Below, piece by piece: positions 2,281-19,174 of a stretch of 23,203 nucleotides of DNA. Below the pieces are notes generated by a model. The model saw only the letters and a list, made by a program, of their open reading frames with translations. It was not told the origin of the DNA and did not search any database. Position numbers and translations under genes: made by a program. The first letter of the stretch is position 1, and each line of letters starts with the position of its first letter. This DNA is from a virus. The stretch covers positions 1-23,203 of IMG/VR virus record IMGVR_UViG_3300028917_000273. The stretch is one strand, 5' to 3'.

Positions 2281-2465
2281 TGTTTTGTAATAGATGTGAA
2301 GGTGAATTTTTTATACAAAAGACAAGTTTAGAAATGGGACCGGTAATCGGAACATCAGGCATTCACACAACTTGGACAATTTGGCAATGTTTAGAATGTG
2401 GTCTAACAAAGTTAGTTCGTAAAGATGCGCAACGAAAGGATATTTCGATCAATGAAAATTCTTAA
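2280..2465 (+). CDS. Small zinc-ribbon-like protein
   Basis: 61 residues starting at ATG 2280 (TAATG overlap with the preceding stop), with AGAAGG at 2268-2273 as ribosome binding site; a TTG two codons earlier is less likely. Two Cys pairs, CNRC near the N-terminus and CLEC near residue 37, are spaced as in a small zinc ribbon, with aromatic residues between them (TTWTIWQ). The end overlaps the terminase start by 14 bases. A zinc ribbon next to terminase could bind DNA or protein, but the actual role is unknown. Confidence 0.6.
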   Translation: MFCNRCEGEFFIQKTSLEMGPVIGTSGIHTTWTIWQCLECGLTKLVRKDAQRKDISINENS

Positions 2466-4911
2466 TCAATTTTTAGACACTTTAAAAAAGAGACTTTCTA
2501 CCATTTTTTCTACGGTTGAAAATCCATCTCTGTGGGCATTAGATCGTCTTGGAATAGATCTATATGACAATCAGATTGAGATTATAGATGCCGTTTGTGA
2601 TTTAAATGAAGACAAAGTTGCTATCGTACAAGCTAGAGGAAGTGGAAAGACCTTTTCAGTTGCTTTAAGTATTATCAAACTTTGTTTAGACATTCCCAAA
2701 TTTAAAGTTGGTGTTTTTGGTCCTAAGGCAGAACAAGCAGCCCGAATCATAAAAGTAATTCGTGAAGAGATTGTAAAACCTGGTAGTGCAATTTATGAGA
2801 CAATAAAATGGAAGGATTCAACAAATTCTAGATTGTCTTTTGTTAATGGCTCTGAAGTTCTAGCAATCTCCGCCGGAGAAGCAACTATGCAAGAGGGTTA
2901 TCACTTTCATATAGTAGTTTTAGACGAGTGTCACAGAATTTCTGATGTATCAGTCAATCAACGAATTGTACCAATGTTAGGGAGTTACAAAATAGCCAAG
3001 ATAGTAAAACTTGGTGTTTCAATGTACAAACAAAACTTTTGGAAAAGTTGTACTCATCCACAAACAGCCTATAAAGTTTTGATGAGAGATTGGAGAGAAT
3101 GTCCAATTTTATTAAAAGCTGGATCAATTGTTTATCAAAGTAGAGAGTACTCAAAATATGTTATAGACCAAATGCCTTTACGATTGAAAGAAAGTTATTT
3201 TCCAGACAGACCTGATTTGCATTATGATGGAGCAATGACAGAATTTGATTTTAATACTCAGTATGAAATGAAATGGGCTGATGATATTAATTTAGAATTA
3301 TCATCAGAAGATCAGACAGCTTTAATTGAAAGTGATCACGAAATTTTAAAAAGAGCTAATCCATCTTTACAAGAACAATTTTTCTTTGGCTTGGACACAG
3401 CATCTGGAACATTATATCCAGGTAAAAAAGATTTAGATTATACAGCATTGGCTATTTGGAGAAAGAAAAACGATAACGTTAAAGAAAAAGTTGCTGCATT
3501 TGAGTGGCAAGGAGATCCTTTAACACAACTATCAGAAATTGAAACAATTATTAATCCAAAAGATGGATTGTTTCCTTGTATGTTTGGTTTAGCCGATTAT
3601 AGTAATATTGCTCAAGGTGCTGTTGAGCAATTTAAAGCAAAAGGAATTCCTATTGACGGAATAATTTTTCAACAAATAAATGATAAAATTGAAGCACCAT
3701 CAGATATGCATGACGACCATTGTTGTTTTTCTGGAAATACAAAAATAAGATTATTGGATGGAACAACAAAAACAATTGCTGAATTATCTGACAATTTATT
3801 AGAAGATACTTGGGCATATAGTGTAGATCAAAATAATCATATAGTTCCTGGTAAGATAAGTAGAGCATGGAAAGTTGGTAATAAAGAAACACTTAAAATT
3901 ACTTTAGACAATAACGAATTTTTTGAATGTACACCAGATCATAAAATAATGTTAAGAGATGGAAGTTACAAAGAAGCAAAAGATTTACAACCAAATGATA
4001 GTTTAATGCCTTTGTATACTAAAAAAGAGGTTTTATTTAATAATTTAGAGTATGAATTTACGTATGATCCCGGAAAGGAAATTTTTATTCCAACACATAG
4101 AATAGTTGTATCCGTTCCTGAGAAGATGGTTCCACATCACAAAAACTTTAATCGTTTTGACAACAGACCAACTAATATTCAAATAGTTACATCAAAAGAA
4201 CATTGGCAAATACATGGAAAAGTAGCAAAGGAAACAAATAAAAGAGTTTGGAGTCAATTAAATAAAGAACAACGGATTAAGAGGTTAACTCCATCGTGGA
4301 AAAAATTAAAAGAGTTATATCAAAATCCAAAATGGATGAAATTTCTTTCAGAATCTATTAAGAAAAATTTACCACCTGTTGATCGTGAAATAGCAAGAGA
4401 GAAAGCAAAAAAACAATGGGAAGGAATTTCTTATCAAGAAAGACTAGAAAGAATGAAACCAATTATAGAAGCTGGAGCAAATGCTCGTAGAGGAAAATCT
4501 AGTTGGAATAAAGGTAAAAGAATAATTCATATAACGAATTGTCAAAATTGTCATAAAGAATTTGATTATCGTTTTTCAGAAATTCGTAAATTTTGTTCTA
4601 CATATTGTTGTCAACAATTTCAAAAACAAAAATTTGTTTTTAATCATAAAGTTGTAAAAATAGAAAAAAGTATTAAACAAGATGTGTATGATATAACGGT
4701 TGAGGTTTATCATAATTTTGCTTTAGATTGTGGTGTATTTGTACATAATTGTAGTGATGTATTGGCCGTTTGGGCTATGGACAAAACAGACCAATTTAAG
4801 AGAGGTACAGTAGCTACTTATCAAATACCCAAACCTGTCACAGGAGTTTCTACAGTTTTAGGAAGAGGAATACCTACAAATCAACCAAAAGAGAACAGGT
4901 ATCTTCAATGA
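2452..4911 (+). CDS. Terminase large subunit containing an in-frame intein
   Basis: DNA-packaging motor: an ATPase that pumps DNA into the prohead through the portal and a nuclease that cuts concatemers. Seen: Walker A (QARGSGKT, about residues 60-67), Walker B (VVLDECH, Asp158-Glu159), and an RNase H-fold nuclease start (FFGLDTASGT, Asp315). A second acidic site is at GLADYS and the third at HDDHCCSD once the intein is removed. The precursor is 819 residues; removing 342 intein residues leaves 477, a normal terminase length. ATG 2452 is preferred (AAAGGA 2435-2440); an in-frame ATG at 2425 would add nine residues and has no clear ribosome site. The intein splits the third catalytic acid motif, so unspliced protein should lack a working nuclease. 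Gene order (terminase, portal, protease, capsid) supports the call. Confidence 0.95.
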   Translation: MKILNQFLDTLKKRLSTIFSTVENPSLWALDRLGIDLYDNQIEIIDAVCDLNEDKVAIVQARGSGKTFSVALSIIKLCLDIPKFKVGVFGPKAEQAARIIKVIREEIVKPGSAIYETIKWKDSTNSRLSFVNGSEVLAISAGEATMQEGYHFHIVVLDECHRISDVSVNQRIVPMLGSYKIAKIVKLGVSMYKQNFWKSCTHPQTAYKVLMRDWRECPILLKAGSIVYQSREYSKYVIDQMPLRLKESYFPDRPDLHYDGAMTEFDFNTQYEMKWADDINLELSSEDQTALIESDHEILKRANPSLQEQFFFGLDTASGTLYPGKKDLDYTALAIWRKKNDNVKEKVAAFEWQGDPLTQLSEIETIINPKDGLFPCMFGLADYSNIAQGAVEQFKAKGIPIDGIIFQQINDKIEAPSDMHDDHCCFSGNTKIRLLDGTTKTIAELSDNLLEDTWAYSVDQNNHIVPGKISRAWKVGNKETLKITLDNNEFFECTPDHKIMLRDGSYKEAKDLQPNDSLMPLYTKKEVLFNNLEYEFTYDPGKEIFIPTHRIVVSVPEKMVPHHKNFNRFDNRPTNIQIVTSKEHWQIHGKVAKETNKRVWSQLNKEQRIKRLTPSWKKLKELYQNPKWMKFLSESIKKNLPPVDREIAREKAKKQWEGISYQERLERMKPIIEAGANARRGKSSWNKGKRIIHITNCQNCHKEFDYRFSEIRKFCSTYCCQQFQKQKFVFNHKVVKIEKSIKQDVYDITVEVYHNFALDCGVFVHNCSDVLAVWAMDKTDQFKRGTVATYQIPKPVTGVSTVLGRGIPTNQPKENRYLQ
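3724..4749 (+). mobile_element. Class 1 intein with HNH homing endonuclease in terminase
   Basis: 342-residue protein intron. The N-terminal splice block is CFSGNTKIRLLDG with Cys1. Block B has TPDH (Thr70, His73), block F is VYDITV with Asp at the F:4 position, and block G ends VFVHN followed by Cys+1. These are the residues of the classic class 1 splicing pathway, with all key residues present. The endonuclease part is HNH type: PHHKNFNRFDNRPTN with a further His in SKEHW (intein residues 137-160). A DNA-recognition region follows with a NUMOD3-like GKSSWNKGK and a Cys-rich element (CQNC ... FCSTYCC), probably a zinc finger. Exteins join as HDDHC|CSDVLAVWAM, which reads as a continuous terminase nuclease motif. 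Confidence 0.93.
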
Positions 4912-4941: not shown

Positions 4942-5166
4942 ATGATTAGACCTGATAAAGCATTAAAAGAAATAATTTTAAATCTAACAACGGTAAGTGA
5001 TATGTTAGAATATATTCGTGATAAATTTGCAAATGAAAATGTAAAACGCCATTTATTGCAAAGTCAAGAAAATTTAGTGAAAACAATTCAACACTTAAAA
5101 AATGGCGAGAAGCTAAATAAAACTATTACATTCAAACAAAGAAACGAAGAGTTAGAAGGAGAATAA
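4942..5166 (+). CDS. Small helical protein between terminase and portal
   Basis: 74 residues; ATG 4942 follows AGGAAA (4931-4936). The predicted fold is all helical: NLTTVSDMLEYIRDKF, then ENVKRHLLQSQENLVKTIQ, then a charged end. The gene lies 30 bases after terminase and one base before the portal gene, so it is probably co-transcribed and coupled to portal translation. Many phages place a small terminase or a packaging helper near this position, but it has no recognisable DNA-binding helix-turn-helix, so I do not assign that role. Function unknown. Confidence 0.65.
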   Translation: MIRPDKALKEIILNLTTVSDMLEYIRDKFANENVKRHLLQSQENLVKTIQHLKNGEKLNKTITFKQRNEELEGE

Positions 5167-5167
5167 T

Positions 5168-7879
5168 ATGGGACGACCAAAGGGAAGTAAAAATAGACCA
5201 AAAATAACATTGAAAGGTACTTATACTCAAGGTGGAGTGTTGGGGAATAGATCTTTAACGGCTGGATTAGTAAAAGAGGGTGGTTATGATGTAACAATGA
5301 AACCATCTTTCTTTTATTCACCAGAATTGACAACTGAATCATGGTTATTACCTAAATCTCGTCAAGAAATTTTAAAATGGGCTCGTATTTTCTTCAATTT
5401 AGAACCATATGTACAATCCATTGTAATGATGCATGCTTATTATCCATTTTCAAAATTTACTATTAGTACTCCTGACAAATCAATAACAGAATTTTATAAA
5501 GATATGGCATTCAATGAAGGTTTTGATTTGTTTAAATTTATTCTTCAAGCAAGTTTGAGTTATCAAAAATTTGGTGAAGCTATTATGTTTGGTAATATGG
5601 AGAAAGGTAAGGATAAATTACACCGTTGGACAAAATTTATTTTATTAGAACCCGAATTGGTTGAAATTAAAAGTGATCTTTTGTCTAATGATGTTTCATA
5701 TGAATTAATTCCTACTGAAGAATTAAAGAATTTGGTCAAGTCTGTCAAACCAGAAGATGCAGAACGTAAAAAGAAATTACAAGAAGATACACCTGCCGTT
5801 ATTGAAGCCGTTATACAAGGGAGAAATATTCAATTAGATCCAGAACATGTTTCACACGTTGCAAGGTTGACAGATCCATCAGCAACTCGTGGAACTAGTC
5901 CTATTCAATGTTTGTTTAAAGTTTTAATTTACCAAGATTGGATCCGTTTGGCTCAATCGGCATTTGCCCAAAGATATATCTTTCCAGTAGAACTTTGGAC
6001 AATAGGAGATTTACCATCAGGTCATATGCCAAGTGAGCAAGATTTATCAAATTTTAGAGACATTATTAATCAAGCAATTCAAAACCCACCTTTTACTATG
6101 GTATTTCCTCCTATTGTAAAGTATGAAGCCTTAAGTACATTGGGAAAACAATTTCCTATTAACAATGAGTACGATTATATTCACGACCAATTATTAGTTG
6201 GTATGGGAGTAAATAAAAATATCATTTTAGGCGAAGGTCCTAGTTTTCCATTATCAGAAGATTCAAGAGTTTTAACTAAAGATGGGTTGAAATATCATTG
6301 GGAACTAACTGAAAATGATTTAATTGCCTCATTTAATTCAAAAACAGAAGAACTAGAATATGTTCCGTTTGTTGATAAGTTAGTAATTCCTTATGAAGGA
6401 GATATGATTCATTTTAAAACTTCAAGAGTTGATCATTTAGTGGCTCCAAATCATAATTGTTGGAACAGAAAAGACAATCAAAGTGAGTGGCAATTAATAA
6501 AAGCAAAAGATGTAAAAACAGAAACACAATTTAGATTAGGAGTTAATTGGGAAGGAAAATTATTAGGTGATGTAAATGTTTTAGGCCACAAAATTCCAAC
6601 AAATCTTTTTATGAAATTAGTTGGTTATTTTGTTTCTGAAGGTTCTTCTGTTTATAAAGAAGGAAGAGATTATCAAGTTTGTGTGTCCCAAGGTGTTAAA
6701 AGTGATTGTTATCAAGATATTGATCAAACGTTTCAACAATTACCATTTAAAGTTCACAAATATTTTGATAAACAAAAATATTATTCTCGAAAAACAAAAC
6801 AAACTGAAATATGTGAAATGACTGACTGGAGATTATTTGGAAAAGATTTAACACAATATTTTAGAGAATCTTTTGGAGAAAATTCATACTCAAAACGAAT
6901 TCCATCTTGGATTAAAGAATTATCAAAAGAGCACTTGAAAGTTCTTTTAGACGCCCTTATTAAGGGAGATGGAAATGAAGACCACTCCTCATCTCAATGG
7001 GGACATACTTCAACATATTATACGTACACTACTAAATCACGGCAGTTGTGTGATGATGTTGTAGAAATTGCATTAAAATGTGGATTTGTTCCCACTTTTA
7101 GATATCTAAAAAATGAATATGTTGTGTATTTTAGTGATAGTTACCAAAAAGAGAAAGGAACGTTTTTCTTATGGGACAATAAAGAAAAAGGTATCGAAGG
7201 AAAAATAGCACGGGGAAATGCTATAACAAATGTTCCTTATAAAGGAAATATTTGGTGTATTGCATTAGCCAAAAATGGTTTATTTGTTTCTGAAAGAAAT
7301 GGTCGGTTAGTTATCACAGGTAATTCAAACGTAAAAACAATGGCACTCCATAAATTAATGATGATGTATAAGGTTGTGAGAGATGAGTTTGAAAACTGGA
7401 TAATTAACAAGTTTTTTAGACCTATAGCGATCAAAAATGAATTTTATGCGACTGTAGGCAAACAAAAGAAATTGATTCTTCCCCAAATTACTTGGAACAA
7501 ATCACTAGATATTGAAGAAGAAGAGGCTGAAAGACAATTCTTTTTGGATATGCATCAGAAAGGTTATCTATCTACTGAAACATTGTTTAGTAAATTTCCT
7601 ACAATTGATTATAATACAGAGCAAAAACGTTTGGAAAATGAAATTGGTACAGTGTGGGATAAGGGTGGTAAAGATAGTAGGTTACCAGCTAAAATTTCAA
7701 AACCAACTCCTCCATCAGGTACAGGTCCGGCTGGGATAGTGAGGCCAACTCCAATTGAACCAATTGAACCTACATTACCAGAAGGTGAAGAAATGGAAGG
7801 GGTTGAAGTACCACCAGAAACTCCAATTACAGAAACAACAGCACCAGAGGTAATTCCTCCAGAAGAACCAGGAGTATAA
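5168..7879 (+). CDS. Portal protein containing an in-frame intein
   Basis: Dodecameric ring at the capsid vertex through which DNA enters and to which terminase and neck bind. Precursor 903 residues; removing the 359-residue intein leaves 544, normal for portals. Seen: a helical/beta core with SQKFGEAIMFGN, DPEHVSHVARL, TRGTSPIQCLFKVLI and LVGMGVNKNIILGEGPSF. After splicing this reads on into SNVKTMALHKLMMMYKVVRD, which matches the long stem helix region typical of phage portals. The C-terminal 70 residues are Pro/Glu-rich and probably disordered. The N-terminus MGRPKGSKNRPK resembles an AT-hook, unusual for a portal. The ribosome site is AAGGAGAA just before ATG 5168. Placement directly after terminase supports the call. 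The family assignment rests on context and pattern, without a profile search. Confidence 0.88.
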   Translation: MGRPKGSKNRPKITLKGTYTQGGVLGNRSLTAGLVKEGGYDVTMKPSFFYSPELTTESWLLPKSRQEILKWARIFFNLEPYVQSIVMMHAYYPFSKFTISTPDKSITEFYKDMAFNEGFDLFKFILQASLSYQKFGEAIMFGNMEKGKDKLHRWTKFILLEPELVEIKSDLLSNDVSYELIPTEELKNLVKSVKPEDAERKKKLQEDTPAVIEAVIQGRNIQLDPEHVSHVARLTDPSATRGTSPIQCLFKVLIYQDWIRLAQSAFAQRYIFPVELWTIGDLPSGHMPSEQDLSNFRDIINQAIQNPPFTMVFPPIVKYEALSTLGKQFPINNEYDYIHDQLLVGMGVNKNIILGEGPSFPLSEDSRVLTKDGLKYHWELTENDLIASFNSKTEELEYVPFVDKLVIPYEGDMIHFKTSRVDHLVAPNHNCWNRKDNQSEWQLIKAKDVKTETQFRLGVNWEGKLLGDVNVLGHKIPTNLFMKLVGYFVSEGSSVYKEGRDYQVCVSQGVKSDCYQDIDQTFQQLPFKVHKYFDKQKYYSRKTKQTEICEMTDWRLFGKDLTQYFRESFGENSYSKRIPSWIKELSKEHLKVLLDALIKGDGNEDHSSSQWGHTSTYYTYTTKSRQLCDDVVEIALKCGFVPTFRYLKNEYVVYFSDSYQKEKGTFFLWDNKEKGIEGKIARGNAITNVPYKGNIWCIALAKNGLFVSERNGRLVITGNSNVKTMALHKLMMMYKVVRDEFENWIINKFFRPIAIKNEFYATVGKQKKLILPQITWNKSLDIEEEEAERQFFLDMHQKGYLSTETLFSKFPTIDYNTEQKRLENEIGTVWDKGGKDSRLPAKISKPTPPSGTGPAGIVRPTPIEPIEPTLPEGEEMEGVEVPPETPITETTAPEVIPPEEPGV
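6248..7324 (+). mobile_element. Class 3-type intein with LAGLIDADG endonuclease and Pro1 in portal gene
   Basis: 359 residues, from Pro in GPSF|PLSEDSRVLTKDG to Asn in LVITGN|S. Position 1 is Pro, not Cys or Ser. Block B reads LVAPNHNCW, with His69 and Trp72; Ala replaces the usual Thr. Block F reads IWCIAL with Cys337 at the F:4 position, and block G ends ITGN with Thr357 at G:5 and Gly in place of the usual penultimate His. Trp, Cys and Thr together are the known signature of class 3 inteins, which start splicing from the block F Cys. Two LAGLIDADG motifs are visible, LVGYFVSEGS (124-133, acid Glu131) and LLDALIKGDG (233-242, acid Asp241), so the endonuclease looks intact. Extein residue +1 is Ser. 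Confidence 0.9.
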
Positions 7880-8528: not shown

Positions 8529-8883
8529 TTATTCTACATGGTTAAAAAAAATTGTTAAAGTAGCATTGTTACAACATCCATATCTCAAAAAAGAGGCTCA
8601 ACCAGGTAATCGTAGACAAGATTTATCAAGGCCTATTTTAGAAAATTTGTTGCAACAAGGTTATGATACTGTTACATGGGATTCAGGAACGAGTGTTTGT
8701 CCTATATGTAGGGAGTTACACAATCAAAAATGGAGTTTGGCTGATTTTTTAACTGGACTTTTGCATGATGCTCCAATTGCAGAAAAAAGTCACCCAAATG
8801 ATAAAAGTTGTTTTGTTATCATACAAGGGCCCGGATTACAAAGCATTCGAGTAGACTATGATGGTAACATGGAGTATTTGTGA
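8512..8883 (+). CDS. Small head-associated protein with MuF-like Cys/His pattern
   Basis: 123 residues. The centre and end carry DTVTWDSGTSVCPICREL, then SHPNDKSCFVII. The C-P-x-C, then H-P-N-x-x-C arrangement is that of the C-terminal part of MuF-type minor head proteins (usually CPICxxL ... HPNCRC), where it probably binds a metal. Here the usual long N-terminal MuF part is missing; the preceding small genes may replace it, or this is a reduced form. The start ATG 8512 overlaps the preceding gene by 17 bases and has only AAGG directly against it, so translation probably depends on coupling. The position after portal and before the protease supports a head role. The MuF link is inference. 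Confidence 0.7.
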   Translation: MTTQSNYSTWLKKIVKVALLQHPYLKKEAQPGNRRQDLSRPILENLLQQGYDTVTWDSGTSVCPICRELHNQKWSLADFLTGLLHDAPIAEKSHPNDKSCFVIIQGPGLQSIRVDYDGNMEYL

Positions 8884-9623
8884 AGAAAATTTGTGGCGTT
8901 TATCAAATTGTTAATATTATTACAGGGAAAGTTTATGTAGGTTCTTCTGTAGATATAAAATCTCGATGGCAAGAACACACACGGGATTTAAAACTAAATC
9001 GCCATGAAAATCAGAAATTACAGATTGATTGGAATAAGTATACTCGATCTGCATTCAAATTTAAAATTTTGAAGATCAGTAGTGAAGATCAACTATCAAA
9101 AATAGAACAAAATTACTTAAACTCAGTAAAAAACAACTCTTACAATATGGAAAATAAAGTTGTTAGGTGTCCCTCTTCTAAGTTAAAGTTAGTTTATTTA
9201 CGTAAAAAGAACGTTAGAACTACTGATGTTGTTAATTATTACGTTAATGGTCACACAAAATGTGAATGTAGAAAACAATTTGATATCGGTGATGATTTAG
9301 TTACCAGAATCTTAAAAGATTATAATGTTTTAAGAAGCAAACCAGAAGCGTTAAAATTAATGCATCAACTTAAACCAGAAATTGCTAAGAAACAAGGTGC
9401 AAAACGCGTAGGATTATTTTTGGGTGCGAAAAGTTATTGGTTCGGTAAACCCGGGCCTATGTCTGGTAAAAAGATGCCTGAAAAATCTATAGAAAGAGGA
9501 TTAAGAACTAGAACCAAAAGATATGGAGATAATTATCATCCCAAAGAAGCTTTAATAAAAATTAGAAATTTAGCTTTAACTCAACCTCATGATTCAATTA
9601 CAGGACAATTTATTTGTAAATAA
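8880..9623 (+). CDS. Free-standing GIY-YIG homing endonuclease
   Basis: 247 residues, starting at GTG 8880, which overlaps the TGA of the preceding gene (GTGA). The N-terminal domain carries the GIY-YIG pattern: GVY at 6-8, YVG at 19-21, Arg29 in SRWQEH and Glu76 in KIEQNYL, all of the expected catalytic positions. The C-terminal part has a helix-turn-helix-like stretch (DIGDDLVTRILKDYNVL) and NUMOD3-like GKPGPMSGKKM, the DNA-recognition elements common in phage homing enzymes. It would cut genomes lacking the insertion and be copied in by repair. It sits between two head genes without breaking a visible reading frame. It is likely an inserted selfish gene, not part of head assembly. Confidence 0.92.
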   Translation: MKKICGVYQIVNIITGKVYVGSSVDIKSRWQEHTRDLKLNRHENQKLQIDWNKYTRSAFKFKILKISSEDQLSKIEQNYLNSVKNNSYNMENKVVRCPSSKLKLVYLRKKNVRTTDVVNYYVNGHTKCECRKQFDIGDDLVTRILKDYNVLRSKPEALKLMHQLKPEIAKKQGAKRVGLFLGAKSYWFGKPGPMSGKKMPEKSIERGLRTRTKRYGDNYHPKEALIKIRNLALTQPHDSITGQFICK

Positions 9624-13122: not shown

Positions 13123-14073
13123 ATGACAGAGAAAATTGCCGCTCCTGAGTTTGAGAATCTTACTCCTGCTCAGGTAGAGGAAAAATTAACTCGATTGATG
13201 AATTCTCCGGGCGGTCTTCAAAAGGTCGCTCAACAAATGTTGTCCCCTCTTAAAAGGGATCTTTTGTTCGAAGGTCGAATTCGTCAATTGTTTCAGACGT
13301 ACAAGCTATCTCTGGGCGAAGAAGCAGTATTCGATGCCGATTTAGACGTACCTGCTGCTGCAATCGGTATTAACGGACTTCCACAGGAGCAACAAGTAGT
13401 TGCTGACAGGATCCGTGTTGAAACTTCACCCTTAGCTACACGTCCTTTGATTCGATGGAATGAATCAAACTTTCGTAAGTACGACATTTTAAATCGTACC
13501 CAAGAAAGGGCGAAAGCTTCCATTATGTTGCAAGAAGACACAAAGGGTTATGCTTTGATCGATTTCGCTTCAAATCTTACAGGACAAACTCCTGCAAGTT
13601 CCTTGGCGGGCACGACAGCTGCATCCAACAATCCTACAGTTCTTACGTCTTCAGGAAAACTGGAACAGGAAAAATTGGTTGAGGCTATTGTAACTCTTCG
13701 TTCTAAGTTACAAATGAGTTCAAAGATTTATTTGAACCCATTGAGGACTAAGGACTTGATGCTCTTCAACACAACAGTATCAGGAACAGGAGGAGCTGGT
13801 ATTTTTGCTCCTAACTTCCAAGAGCAAGCAATTAAGTCAGGACAAGTTGGTTCAATCTGGGGTCAAGATGTTCTTGAGTCCGTGGTTGTTCCTATTGCAA
13901 AAGTATTTGTACTTGCTCCGGCTGAGTATCTTGGAGTACTCGCGGTACGTACTGATGTTTCTGTTGAAACAATGAAGGATGTTAGAGAGATGGCTGATAT
14001 CTTTGCAATCTGGGAAGACATTGGATTCCTAGTGCGTTATGCAAAGGGTATTGTCAGAATCGACATTACATAA
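13123..14073 (+). CDS. Major capsid protein
   Basis: 316 residues; TAAGGAGAA before ATG 13123. The order protease/scaffold, decoration, this gene is the standard place for the HK97-fold capsid protein. The protein has an N-terminal helical arm (PEFENLTPAQVEEKLTRLM), then a body with VETSPLATRPLIRWNES, ASIMLQEDTKGYALIDFAS, SSKIYLNPLRTKDLML, GSIWGQDVLESVVVPIAKVF and LAPAEYLGVLAVRTDVSVE. The last resembles the end of the P-domain/A-domain region of capsid proteins. Codons are more GC-rich: 29 of 60 bases are G or C at 13381-13440, against 14 of 60 at 16621-16680. That is expected for the most highly expressed protein of the virion. Two strong hairpins follow its stop. Confidence 0.88.
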   Translation: MTEKIAAPEFENLTPAQVEEKLTRLMNSPGGLQKVAQQMLSPLKRDLLFEGRIRQLFQTYKLSLGEEAVFDADLDVPAAAIGINGLPQEQQVVADRIRVETSPLATRPLIRWNESNFRKYDILNRTQERAKASIMLQEDTKGYALIDFASNLTGQTPASSLAGTTAASNNPTVLTSSGKLEQEKLVEAIVTLRSKLQMSSKIYLNPLRTKDLMLFNTTVSGTGGAGIFAPNFQEQAIKSGQVGSIWGQDVLESVVVPIAKVFVLAPAEYLGVLAVRTDVSVETMKDVREMADIFAIWEDIGFLVRYAKGIVRIDIT

Positions 14074-14087
14074 TTTGTTTTAATATT

Positions 14088-14127
14088 GAGATCAGGTTGG
14101 GTAGTGAAAACTACCTGGCCTGGTCTC
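14088..14127 (+). ncRNA. 18-bp RNA hairpin with GAAA tetraloop after capsid gene
   Basis: The left arm 14088-14105 (GAGATCAGGTTGGGTAGT) pairs fully with the right arm 14110-14127 (ACTACCTGGCCTGGTCTC) around a GAAA loop. All 18 positions pair, four as G-U. The loop is a GNRA tetraloop. There is no T-run directly after it, so it is not by itself a classical terminator. It may protect the 3' end of the capsid mRNA or be an RNase III-type processing site. Confidence 0.85.
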
Positions 14128-14173
14128 ATAACTTAAATGGATCGTAAAGGGTCTATTTAAGTTATTACTTTTT
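14128..14173 (+). terminator. 16-bp hairpin followed by T-run, candidate terminator
   Basis: The arms 14128-14143 (ATAACTTAAATGGATC) and 14150-14165 (GGTCTATTTAAGTTAT) pair at all 16 positions, two as G-U, with the loop GTAAAG. It starts on the base after the first hairpin ends. TTAC and then five T (14169-14173) follow. It could be a full or partial terminator lowering expression of downstream genes relative to capsid; the T-run is short and set off by four bases, so read-through is likely. Confidence 0.65.
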
Positions 14174-14197: not shown

Positions 14198-14551
14198 ATG
14201 TCAAAGAGATATAAGGTGATTGCTTACGGGGGATATGACGGCTTAAAGTTTCCAGATTTGGTTGTTCGTTTTACGTCAGGATATGCAATTCCTTTACATG
14301 TTAAACAAGATGAATATGTACCCCTACAGATTTTAGATCCTTTTGATATTCAAAAATCATTAATAGTTGGTAGTTTAGGCCGTTATATTAAAGGTGGTCA
14401 AATCATTGTAGAAGATGATGAAGAACCTAAAGAAGAAAAAAAGGAAGAAGAAACTACAAAAATAGAAACACTAAAACAAGAAGAACCAAAAAAAGAAGAA
14501 CTACCAAAACCTTGTCCCAAGTTAAAACTTATGAGGATTTTTGCAAATTAA
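14198..14551 (+). CDS. Small beta-rich protein with acidic tail; possible frameshift product
   Basis: 117 residues; GAGGAG before ATG 14198. Residues 1-70 are beta-rich (YKVIAYGGYDGLKFPDLVVRF; GRYIKGGQIIVEDD). Residues 75-108 are almost only Glu, Lys, Thr and Pro, and the protein then ends in LMRIFAN. The -1 frame stays open through the acidic tail and continues to 14679 as protein-like sequence. An A_AAA_AAG heptamer in the correct phase is at 14437-14443, and A_AAA_AAA at 14488-14494. A shifted product would reach about 160 residues if it slipped at the first site. The gene follows the capsid gene; its function is unknown. Confidence 0.7.
   Translation: MSKRYKVIAYGGYDGLKFPDLVVRFTSGYAIPLHVKQDEYVPLQILDPFDIQKSLIVGSLGRYIKGGQIIVEDDEEPKEEKKEEETTKIETLKQEEPKKEELPKPCPKLKLMRIFAN
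14437..14443 (+). other. A_AAA_AAG heptamer, candidate -1 frameshift site
   Basis: In the zero frame the bases read ..A AAA AAG, the same heptamer and phase as the known dnaX slippery site of E. coli. A purine-rich stretch surrounds it, which also makes chance occurrence likely. No strong stem just downstream was found, so the evidence is moderate at best. Confidence 0.4.
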
Positions 14552-17882: not shown

Positions 17883-18656
17883 ATGAAATTAGTACAATTA
17901 AATTATAATCAATTTAAATCAATTGTTGAAAGTAAAAATTTAGTTCTTCAATATGTAGAACATGTTGACAGATATGAATTATTTGCTATTGAAGGATCTC
18001 TTTCTTGGGAAACAACAATTTTAAAAGGATCAAACGATGCAACTGATTTTGAAACTAATTATAAAGATACTGCCAACCAACCCCTTTCTGTAAGAATTAA
18101 ATCCAGTTACATTAATAACAAACCAGTTGTACGTTCAGAATCAAGGCCCGATGATACTTCGTCATATTTTACAACTCGTGGAGATAGTGCAACAGGAATA
18201 GGAGATGGATCAAGATTTGAATGGGATTTTTCAAATTCTGATAATGAAGTTTCAGCACCATCTGGTTATAAACGAAAAAGAATAGAGACTAGTTTTGCAG
18301 ATGATGTGTGGGTAAAAGAGGGAACTGTTTATTTTTATAATACTCCGAAAGGTGCTTATATTGATTTTTATGTTGTATGTCCTGATGGTCAATACTATTA
18401 TGATAGAAATGGTGATCCTCAACAAGCTGTTGGTGATGTAATTATTGAACATTATGTAGTTGCTCATCCAATGCAAGATTCTGCTCCAATGGGTGATGAG
18501 TTAAATACAGAAGCTGCTACAATTAATGCTGTTCCACCTTCGTATAAATTTAGAATTGAAATTACAACTCCTGAATCAGATTCGGGGTCAAATGGTTATG
18601 CCGAATTAGAACTATATCGTATTAGGTCTATTTTACGTCCGGGTGAGGAAATTTAA
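17883..18656 (+). CDS. Structural protein with shared DFETN module
   Basis: 257 residues. ATG 17883 is chosen over an in-frame TTG at 17847 because GAGGA sits before it and the upstream part lies inside the previous gene. The N-terminal module (NLVLQYVEHVDRYELFAIEG; TDFETNYKDTANQ) is clearly related to the gene upstream. The rest is beta-rich (GSRFEWDFSNSDNEV; GTVYFYNTPKGAYIDFYVV; YAELELYRIRSILRPGEEI). The stop shares a base with the next ATG (TAATG). It looks like a paralogue that kept the attachment module and has a different C-terminal domain. Confidence 0.68.
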   Translation: MKLVQLNYNQFKSIVESKNLVLQYVEHVDRYELFAIEGSLSWETTILKGSNDATDFETNYKDTANQPLSVRIKSSYINNKPVVRSESRPDDTSSYFTTRGDSATGIGDGSRFEWDFSNSDNEVSAPSGYKRKRIETSFADDVWVKEGTVYFYNTPKGAYIDFYVVCPDGQYYYDRNGDPQQAVGDVIIEHYVVAHPMQDSAPMGDELNTEAATINAVPPSYKFRIEITTPESDSGSNGYAELELYRIRSILRPGEEI

Positions 18657-19174
18657 TGATTCGAAAACAAATGTTACGTCCGGGTGATTTAATTTTTTAC
18701 AGACCAAAAAAAACATGGTCTATTGGTTCTTGGTTTATTGCTTGGGCACAAAATGTAATAGGAAAATCTCCTATTCATAATGTTTCTTATTGTCATGTGG
18801 GAATTATTGATTCTGATACAAATTATCTTCTTGAATCTCGTTGGCCAAGATCAAGGCGCTGGAAAATTAATTGGAAAAAATTAGAAAAACAATATCATCT
18901 TGAACTTTGGAGAATTAGACATGTTAAAAAAGAAGAAATTGAAAAAGCTTTAAATTGGTGTTATGAACATTTAAATGAATGGTATGACTTAGGTCTTTTT
19001 ATTTGGGGTTTGTTCGATTTTAAAAATGCCGAGGTCTGTAGTACTTTTGTAGCGAAAGCTTGGAAAGCAGCTGGTCGAATATTTAAAATTCATAAACAAA
19101 TTCAACCAGATGCAGATTTTCATACACCGGATGAACTTATTGCTAATGAAGACCTTATTAAAAGGATAGCTTAA
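18656..19174 (+). CDS. Permuted papain-fold (YiiX/YaeF-like, NlpC/P60-related) hydrolase
   Basis: 172 residues; ATG 18656 overlaps the previous stop by one base. The N-terminus MLRPGDLIFYRPKK is the typical opening of the permuted NlpC/P60 group. His47 in SYCHVGI and Cys128 in AEVCSTFVAKAW occur in the permuted order (His first, Cys later) and are the likely catalytic pair. YDLGLFIWGLF before the Cys also fits. Members hydrolyse amide or ester bonds in cell-wall peptides or lipids. In a virion gene block it could open the cell wall locally at infection, or act on a virion or host protein. No signal peptide. Family call is fairly secure; substrate unknown. Confidence 0.8.
   Translation: MIRKQMLRPGDLIFYRPKKTWSIGSWFIAWAQNVIGKSPIHNVSYCHVGIIDSDTNYLLESRWPRSRRWKINWKKLEKQYHLELWRIRHVKKEEIEKALNWCYEHLNEWYDLGLFIWGLFDFKNAEVCSTFVAKAWKAAGRIFKIHKQIQPDADFHTPDELIANEDLIKRIA

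Follow-up and report, generated by a model that had tools for sequence, protein, structure and literature searches.

What is the role of two long hairpins that lie end to end directly behind the major capsid protein gene of a tailed phage? The question is raised by a 23,203-nucleotide stretch of DNA (IMG/VR record IMGVR_UViG_3300028917_000273, positions 1 to 23,203), here called the window, whose relevant features are listed in the Table. Checking the stems pair by pair bore out the preliminary description of two adjoining, fully paired stems behind a capsid gene: there are no mismatches, six G-U pairs in total and a spacer of 0 nt. An optional 19th pair of stem 1, U14087-A14128, can form, but stem 2 then loses its last pair. 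Hairpin 1 starts 14 nt 3' of the capsid stop codon; 32 nt separate the end of hairpin 2 from the start codon of the next gene (the 14198 gene), and within this interval, about 20 nt 3' of hairpin 2, lies the sequence GAGGAG, which resembles a ribosome-binding site. A minus-strand element was rejected on the ground that every open reading frame of at least 200 amino acids in the window is on the plus strand.

Table. Positions of the hairpins and of the features discussed with them (window coordinates unless a locus is named)
Feature	Position	Strand	Description
Major capsid protein gene	13123..14073	+	PHROG 2522 major head protein, E 8e-32
Hairpin 1	14088..14127	+	18-bp GC-richer stem, GAAA loop; 14 Watson-Crick and 4 G-U pairs
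Hairpin 2	14128..14165	+	16-bp AU-rich stem, 6-nt loop; 14 Watson-Crick and 2 G-U pairs
T-rich trail TACTTTTT	14166..14173	+	T at 6 of 8 positions; listed by the terminator scan; lacking in L004
Next gene (14198 gene), conserved	14198..14551	+	Homologues 3' of the capsid gene in relatives, at differing distances
Insert in L004	1031-2622		Two genes; proteins without clear family
Second set of 3'-bulged hairpins	L010 5489, L012 7430, L013 8759, L015 5628, L016 4730, L018 6508		

The stability of the structure sets it apart from its surroundings. The 101-nt fold that contains both hairpins has an energy of -48.8 kcal/mol (z -11.2), a value equalled by none of 200 shuffles, and the hairpin stretch is by a wide margin the lowest-energy 100 nt anywhere in the window. 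Stems of 16 bp turned up at 0.017 per window, and stems of 18 bp likewise, in 60 Markov versions of the complete window. The abutment by itself is weak evidence, showing little or no excess over shuffled sequence: gaps of at most 2 nt between neighboring hairpin domains were found in 9 of 51 regions from relatives and in 260 of 2040 shuffles; with a stricter strength cut-off the figures were 4 of 51 regions and 79 of 2040 shuffles. Rfam returned no match in the window at its curated score, and weak ones only under the gathering score.

A strong hairpin behind the capsid gene is the rule in this family. Relatives of the capsid protein were found at 56 loci among viral contigs; its distant relatives include gp27 of Bacillus phage G, the major capsid proteins of mycobacteriophages, and proteins of an uncultured 485-kb phage and of actinobacterial phages. 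Five loci whose contigs end before the capsid stop were dropped (L050, L051, L053, L055 and L056), and eight further loci identical over 110 nt downstream were counted once. This left 51 non-redundant regions, namely 43 distinct viral loci, among which L041 stands for the window (the two are identical there), and 8 named records; L113, found later, is uncounted. Of these 51 regions, 48 have a hairpin with an energy of -18 kcal/mol or lower no more than 110 nt 3' of the capsid stop; the same holds for 51 of 216 ends of other genes and for 71 of 306 intragenic stretches. One of the three exceptions is phage G itself, which has a shorter, weaker hairpin followed by a T-run; in the other two (L008 and L048), an insertion intervenes, and a covariance model located the hairpin about 265 nt past the stop. 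These data show the hairpins and their fixed place behind the capsid gene. A pattern search for hairpin 1 hit 15 contigs, in which the tandem fold was present only in L004 and in L182, the contig of L041. Related DNA from cultured phages was limited to weak matches over 14-21% of the query, and a search of genome contigs, which might have pointed to a host, found no relative.

The comparison between the window and L004 bears on what selection has preserved. L004 carries the whole tandem twice, and the gap between the stems is zero in all three copies. Seven of the 16 pairs of hairpin 2 are the same in the window and in L004, two differ on one side and seven on both sides, and none is broken. 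In hairpin 1 the seven outer pairs, including one U-G wobble, are identical between the window and both L004 copies, and the middle of the stem differs in length by three pairs, gained or lost on both arms (the window being the longer). Since the window tandem has this one homologous virus, its own evidence comes from two lineages. Among relatives with one long hairpin, 21 were aligned (alignment A2): 97.7% of cells are paired and both sides have changed in 16 of 21 pairs, whereas sliding one arm by 1-3 columns, a control run alongside shuffling, lowers pairing to 46-51%. The rows were picked for folding as one long hairpin with a bulge in the 3' strand, so this alignment favors that structure.

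A further test exploits the fact that G-U pairs are tolerated by the plus-strand RNA only. When arms were picked by scoring G-U and A-C equally, 43 of 51 distinct hairpins were retained (the other 8 scored too low), and their arms contain 54 G-U and 11 A-C oppositions; merging similar hairpins left 29, with 37 G-U and 8 A-C, in rows that are still somewhat related. The covariation and the excess of G-U over A-C support the view, advanced in the preliminary description from the six wobble pairs, that selection acts on the structure of the plus-strand RNA; the compensatory changes that it proposed to look for in relatives are present. Long inverted repeats can also be operators, and the stretch could in principle be a chance product or a protein-binding palindrome in the DNA. 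The excess of G-U, the compensatory changes and the failure of all 200 shuffles to fold equally well make this highly improbable, and a DNA operator was rejected on the pairing counts and the covariation.

The form in which pairing is maintained differs among lineages. In the window, L002, L003 and L004, a GC-rich hairpin is followed by an AU-rich one at a distance of 0-1 nt. In a group of 18 loci that we call clade B (L011-L020, L024-L029, L052 and L054), there is a single hairpin, about 21 bp long, whose upper part is GC-rich and whose lower part is AU-rich; its 3' strand has a bulge of one base. This bulge is kept in 21 of 21 aligned sequences, and 19 of them have a G-U two pairs inside it. 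Directly after the hairpin, all 18 clade-B loci have an extended -10 element (TGN plus TATAMT; TAGAAT in L020), in most cases 17 nt from a -35-like hexamer that in six loci lies inside the 3' arm of the hairpin. Promoter scores reached a p of 0.05 or better against shuffled controls in 12 of 18 clade-B loci and in 1 of 33 other regions. Behind this promoter are tRNA genes or GIY-YIG endonuclease genes. With a promoter straight after the hairpin, a new transcription unit seems to begin where the capsid unit ends.

Taken together, these properties lead us to favor, with about even confidence, a model in which the tandem delimits the capsid mRNA at its 3' end, acting as a partial, V-shaped terminator and as a barrier to exonucleases. 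Both hairpins would fold in the transcript just past the capsid stop codon and so mark the 3' boundary of the message. RNA polymerase would slow or partly stop there, as at a non-canonical V-shaped terminator, and a part of the polymerases would continue into the 14198 gene, which has no promoter of its own. Stable hairpins at the 3' end would bar 3'-5' exonucleases, with the result that capsid mRNA would outlive and outnumber the mRNA downstream. Partial termination, protection from exonucleases and the ensuing effect on dosage are what we infer from the structure and its location.

Partial termination is favored by the clade-B promoters just after the hairpin and by T-rich trails in some clades and in distant relatives, which have a hairpin with such a trail at the same place (for example GGTCCTTTTTTTCTTG in phage G and GGGTCTTTTCTTG in mycobacteriophage NoodleTree). 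It is weakened by the scarcity of T-runs elsewhere. Beside the inner stem, only 8 of 49 hairpins have six or more T in 8 nt, or 9 of 49 if the outer stem is counted too (duplicates and the hairpins weaker than -13 kcal/mol, those of L008 and L048, were left out). T-run hairpins do occur in these viruses, though rarely: a simple ORF caller delimited 896 gene ends in six long contigs, and 19 of these have one (6 of 85 convergent ends, 13 of 811 codirectional ends). Of the capsid hairpins of the same six contigs, that of G006 has a T-run, four do not, and that of G005 lies beyond the stretch tested. Measured against the canonical standard of a GC-rich stem followed immediately by a U-tract, hairpin 1 of the window has no T-run in its trail, and hairpin 2, to which the terminator scan assigns 3 G-C pairs, is followed by the short trail given in the Table. 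The scan reported hairpin 2 with the trail TACTTTTTGA among 11 hits, and shuffles average 8.0. The earlier proposal of a step-down terminator is weak: the trail does follow hairpin 2, but neither copy of the homologous tandem in L004 has a T-run. A complete terminator would also silence the 14198 gene, as no promoter is seen before it: between hairpin 2 and this gene, a scan of the identical L041 sequence gave a best score of 6.5 with a shuffle p of 1.0.

The main rival to termination is cutting. An RNase III-type enzyme of host or phage might cleave the long stems of a read-through transcript, so that the capsid mRNA would be stable and capped by a hairpin and the downstream mRNA would be a molecule of its own. 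We regard this as a possibility of some weight, though probably not the explanation. The general lack of a T-run would be expected of a cleavage site, as would the ribosome site of the next gene close behind with no promoter between. The clade-B hairpins, with their length of about 21 bp, invariant bulge and nearby G-U, suggest recognition by a protein. The stems of the window are without a bulge, however, and the promoters right behind the hairpin in the 18 clade-B loci better fit the end of a transcription unit; distant relatives have a terminator-like T trail. At RNase III processing sites the double-stranded region spans some 20 bp or more; the window stems measure 18 and 16 bp taken separately and would amount to 34 bp only if stacked. 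Partial termination and cutting could operate together.

Turning to the surroundings of the hairpins, the distance from the capsid gene to the 14198 homologue is 88 nt in L046, as compared with 124 nt in the window and 1.85 kb in L004; it exceeds 3 kb in L012, L016 and L022 and reaches about 9.3 kb in G001. In L004, the two copies of the tandem form an 82-nt repeat, 94% identical, on either side of the two-gene insert. Cassettes in this gap often end in another hairpin. One might thus regard the tandem as mainly a block of homology that admits cassettes between the capsid and 14198-type genes, in the manner of the PeSL elements of T4-like phages. The bracketed insert in L004 and the variable gap speak for such a role; but recombination requires matching sequence rather than covarying stems, L004 is the single clear case, and the window has no insert at this site, which makes the idea unlikely as the principal explanation. 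The 3'-boundary role that we favor fits the hotspot data as well as the place and the pairing.

Clade B and its neighbors have extra bulged hairpins downstream, several of them right before the 14198-type gene. A hairpin also precedes that gene in L004, L009, L012, L016 and L022, which, together with the location of hairpin 2 some 30 nt upstream of the 14198 start codon, might indicate that hairpin 2 is a leader element affecting translation or stability of the 14198 message, hairpin 1 alone belonging to the capsid gene. Such a division of labor appears quite improbable, given that L011, L019, L020, L027 and L049 have no comparable long hairpin just before their 14198-type gene and that the stems leave the ribosome site free. 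As a separate observation, a second set of mutually similar 3'-bulged hairpins (GAATCTACATT-GGAGGGATC...) lies 3' of the capsid hairpin at the positions given in the Table, and several of its members end inserted cassettes.

Several known systems invite comparison. The WebGeSTer classification includes V-shaped non-canonical intrinsic terminators, in which a second hairpin stands directly behind the first downstream of a gene (PMC10453384). The window has this anatomy, with zero gap and a start 14 nt past the stop codon, and would be a candidate member of the class; it differs in the compensatory changes of its stems and in the second copy of the tandem that L004 carries. A terminator hairpin just behind the major capsid gene (gene 10) is described for T7-like phages, in a paper whose account also mentions a hairpin elsewhere in the phage without a poly-T tail (PMC3080317). 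The place is the same, but the phage group is another, and here there are two stems in a family mostly without a T-run. In Mycobacterium tuberculosis, an I-shaped hairpin without a U-trail reduces downstream expression in a reporter (PMC5335608). That hairpin likewise dispenses with a U-tract, but it is a single one in a bacterial operon. The PeSL (promoter-stem-loop) arrangement of T4-like phages has a parallel in clade B, with its stem-loop and promoter at cassette boundaries; the window has the stem-loops but not the promoter, and belongs to a different phage group and to a structural-gene locus. Flanking of a cassette, another PeSL trait, is seen at the L004 tandem and not at the window. 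The RNase III sites of phage T7 are long intercistronic mRNA hairpins at which cleavage has been shown. The hairpins of the window are also long and intercistronic, but their stems are without an internal loop. Full-text searches of open-licence papers bearing on phages brought up no title or abstract about a tandem hairpin that covaries and lies behind a capsid gene, which is no proof of absence.

It is tempting to speculate, although we consider it rather doubtful, that a lineage of large phages related to phage G has a class of structured RNA 3'-boundary elements not described before. These would be free in sequence and conserved in shape (tandem in the window lineage, single and 3'-bulged in clade B); a phage or host protein would read them and make the mRNA end with no need of a U-tract, and they would be copied together with the cassettes that enter behind the capsid gene. 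More generally, this is a clear case in which the end of the message that the phage needs most is, on our reading, set by an RNA shape whose sequence evolves freely, usually with no U-tract; most such elements would be overlooked by standard terminator finders, which require one. If the ends were made by cutting or by a factor, the case would also illustrate how capsid dosage is set in large uncultured phages, and why the accessory genes for tRNAs and homing collect just behind the capsid gene.

Some observations on neighboring and related genes may be added. The insertion of about 260 nt between capsid stop and hairpin in L008 and L048 (approximately 4951-5215) resembles a group I intron core by eye and has no Rfam match at the gathering score. 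In L054 (G009), a group I intron (Rfam RF00028) is found upstream at 2387-2708, and the capsid gene is in four separated pieces, probably split by introns. Within the window, the terminase large subunit gene (2425-4911) harbors an intein that includes an HNH endonuclease (matches to Pfam Intein_splicing, E 7e-23, and to HNH_3); residues 345-608 of the portal protein (5168-7879) match families named thymidylate synthase or of unknown function and are possibly a second intein. A free-standing GIY-YIG homing endonuclease gene lies amid the structural genes at 8880-9623, and the similar genes of clade B are those that sit behind the capsid gene. Finally, a small protein encoded in the structural region (18656-19174) matches PHROG 1128, labelled enoyl-CoA hydratase-like (E 4e-9).
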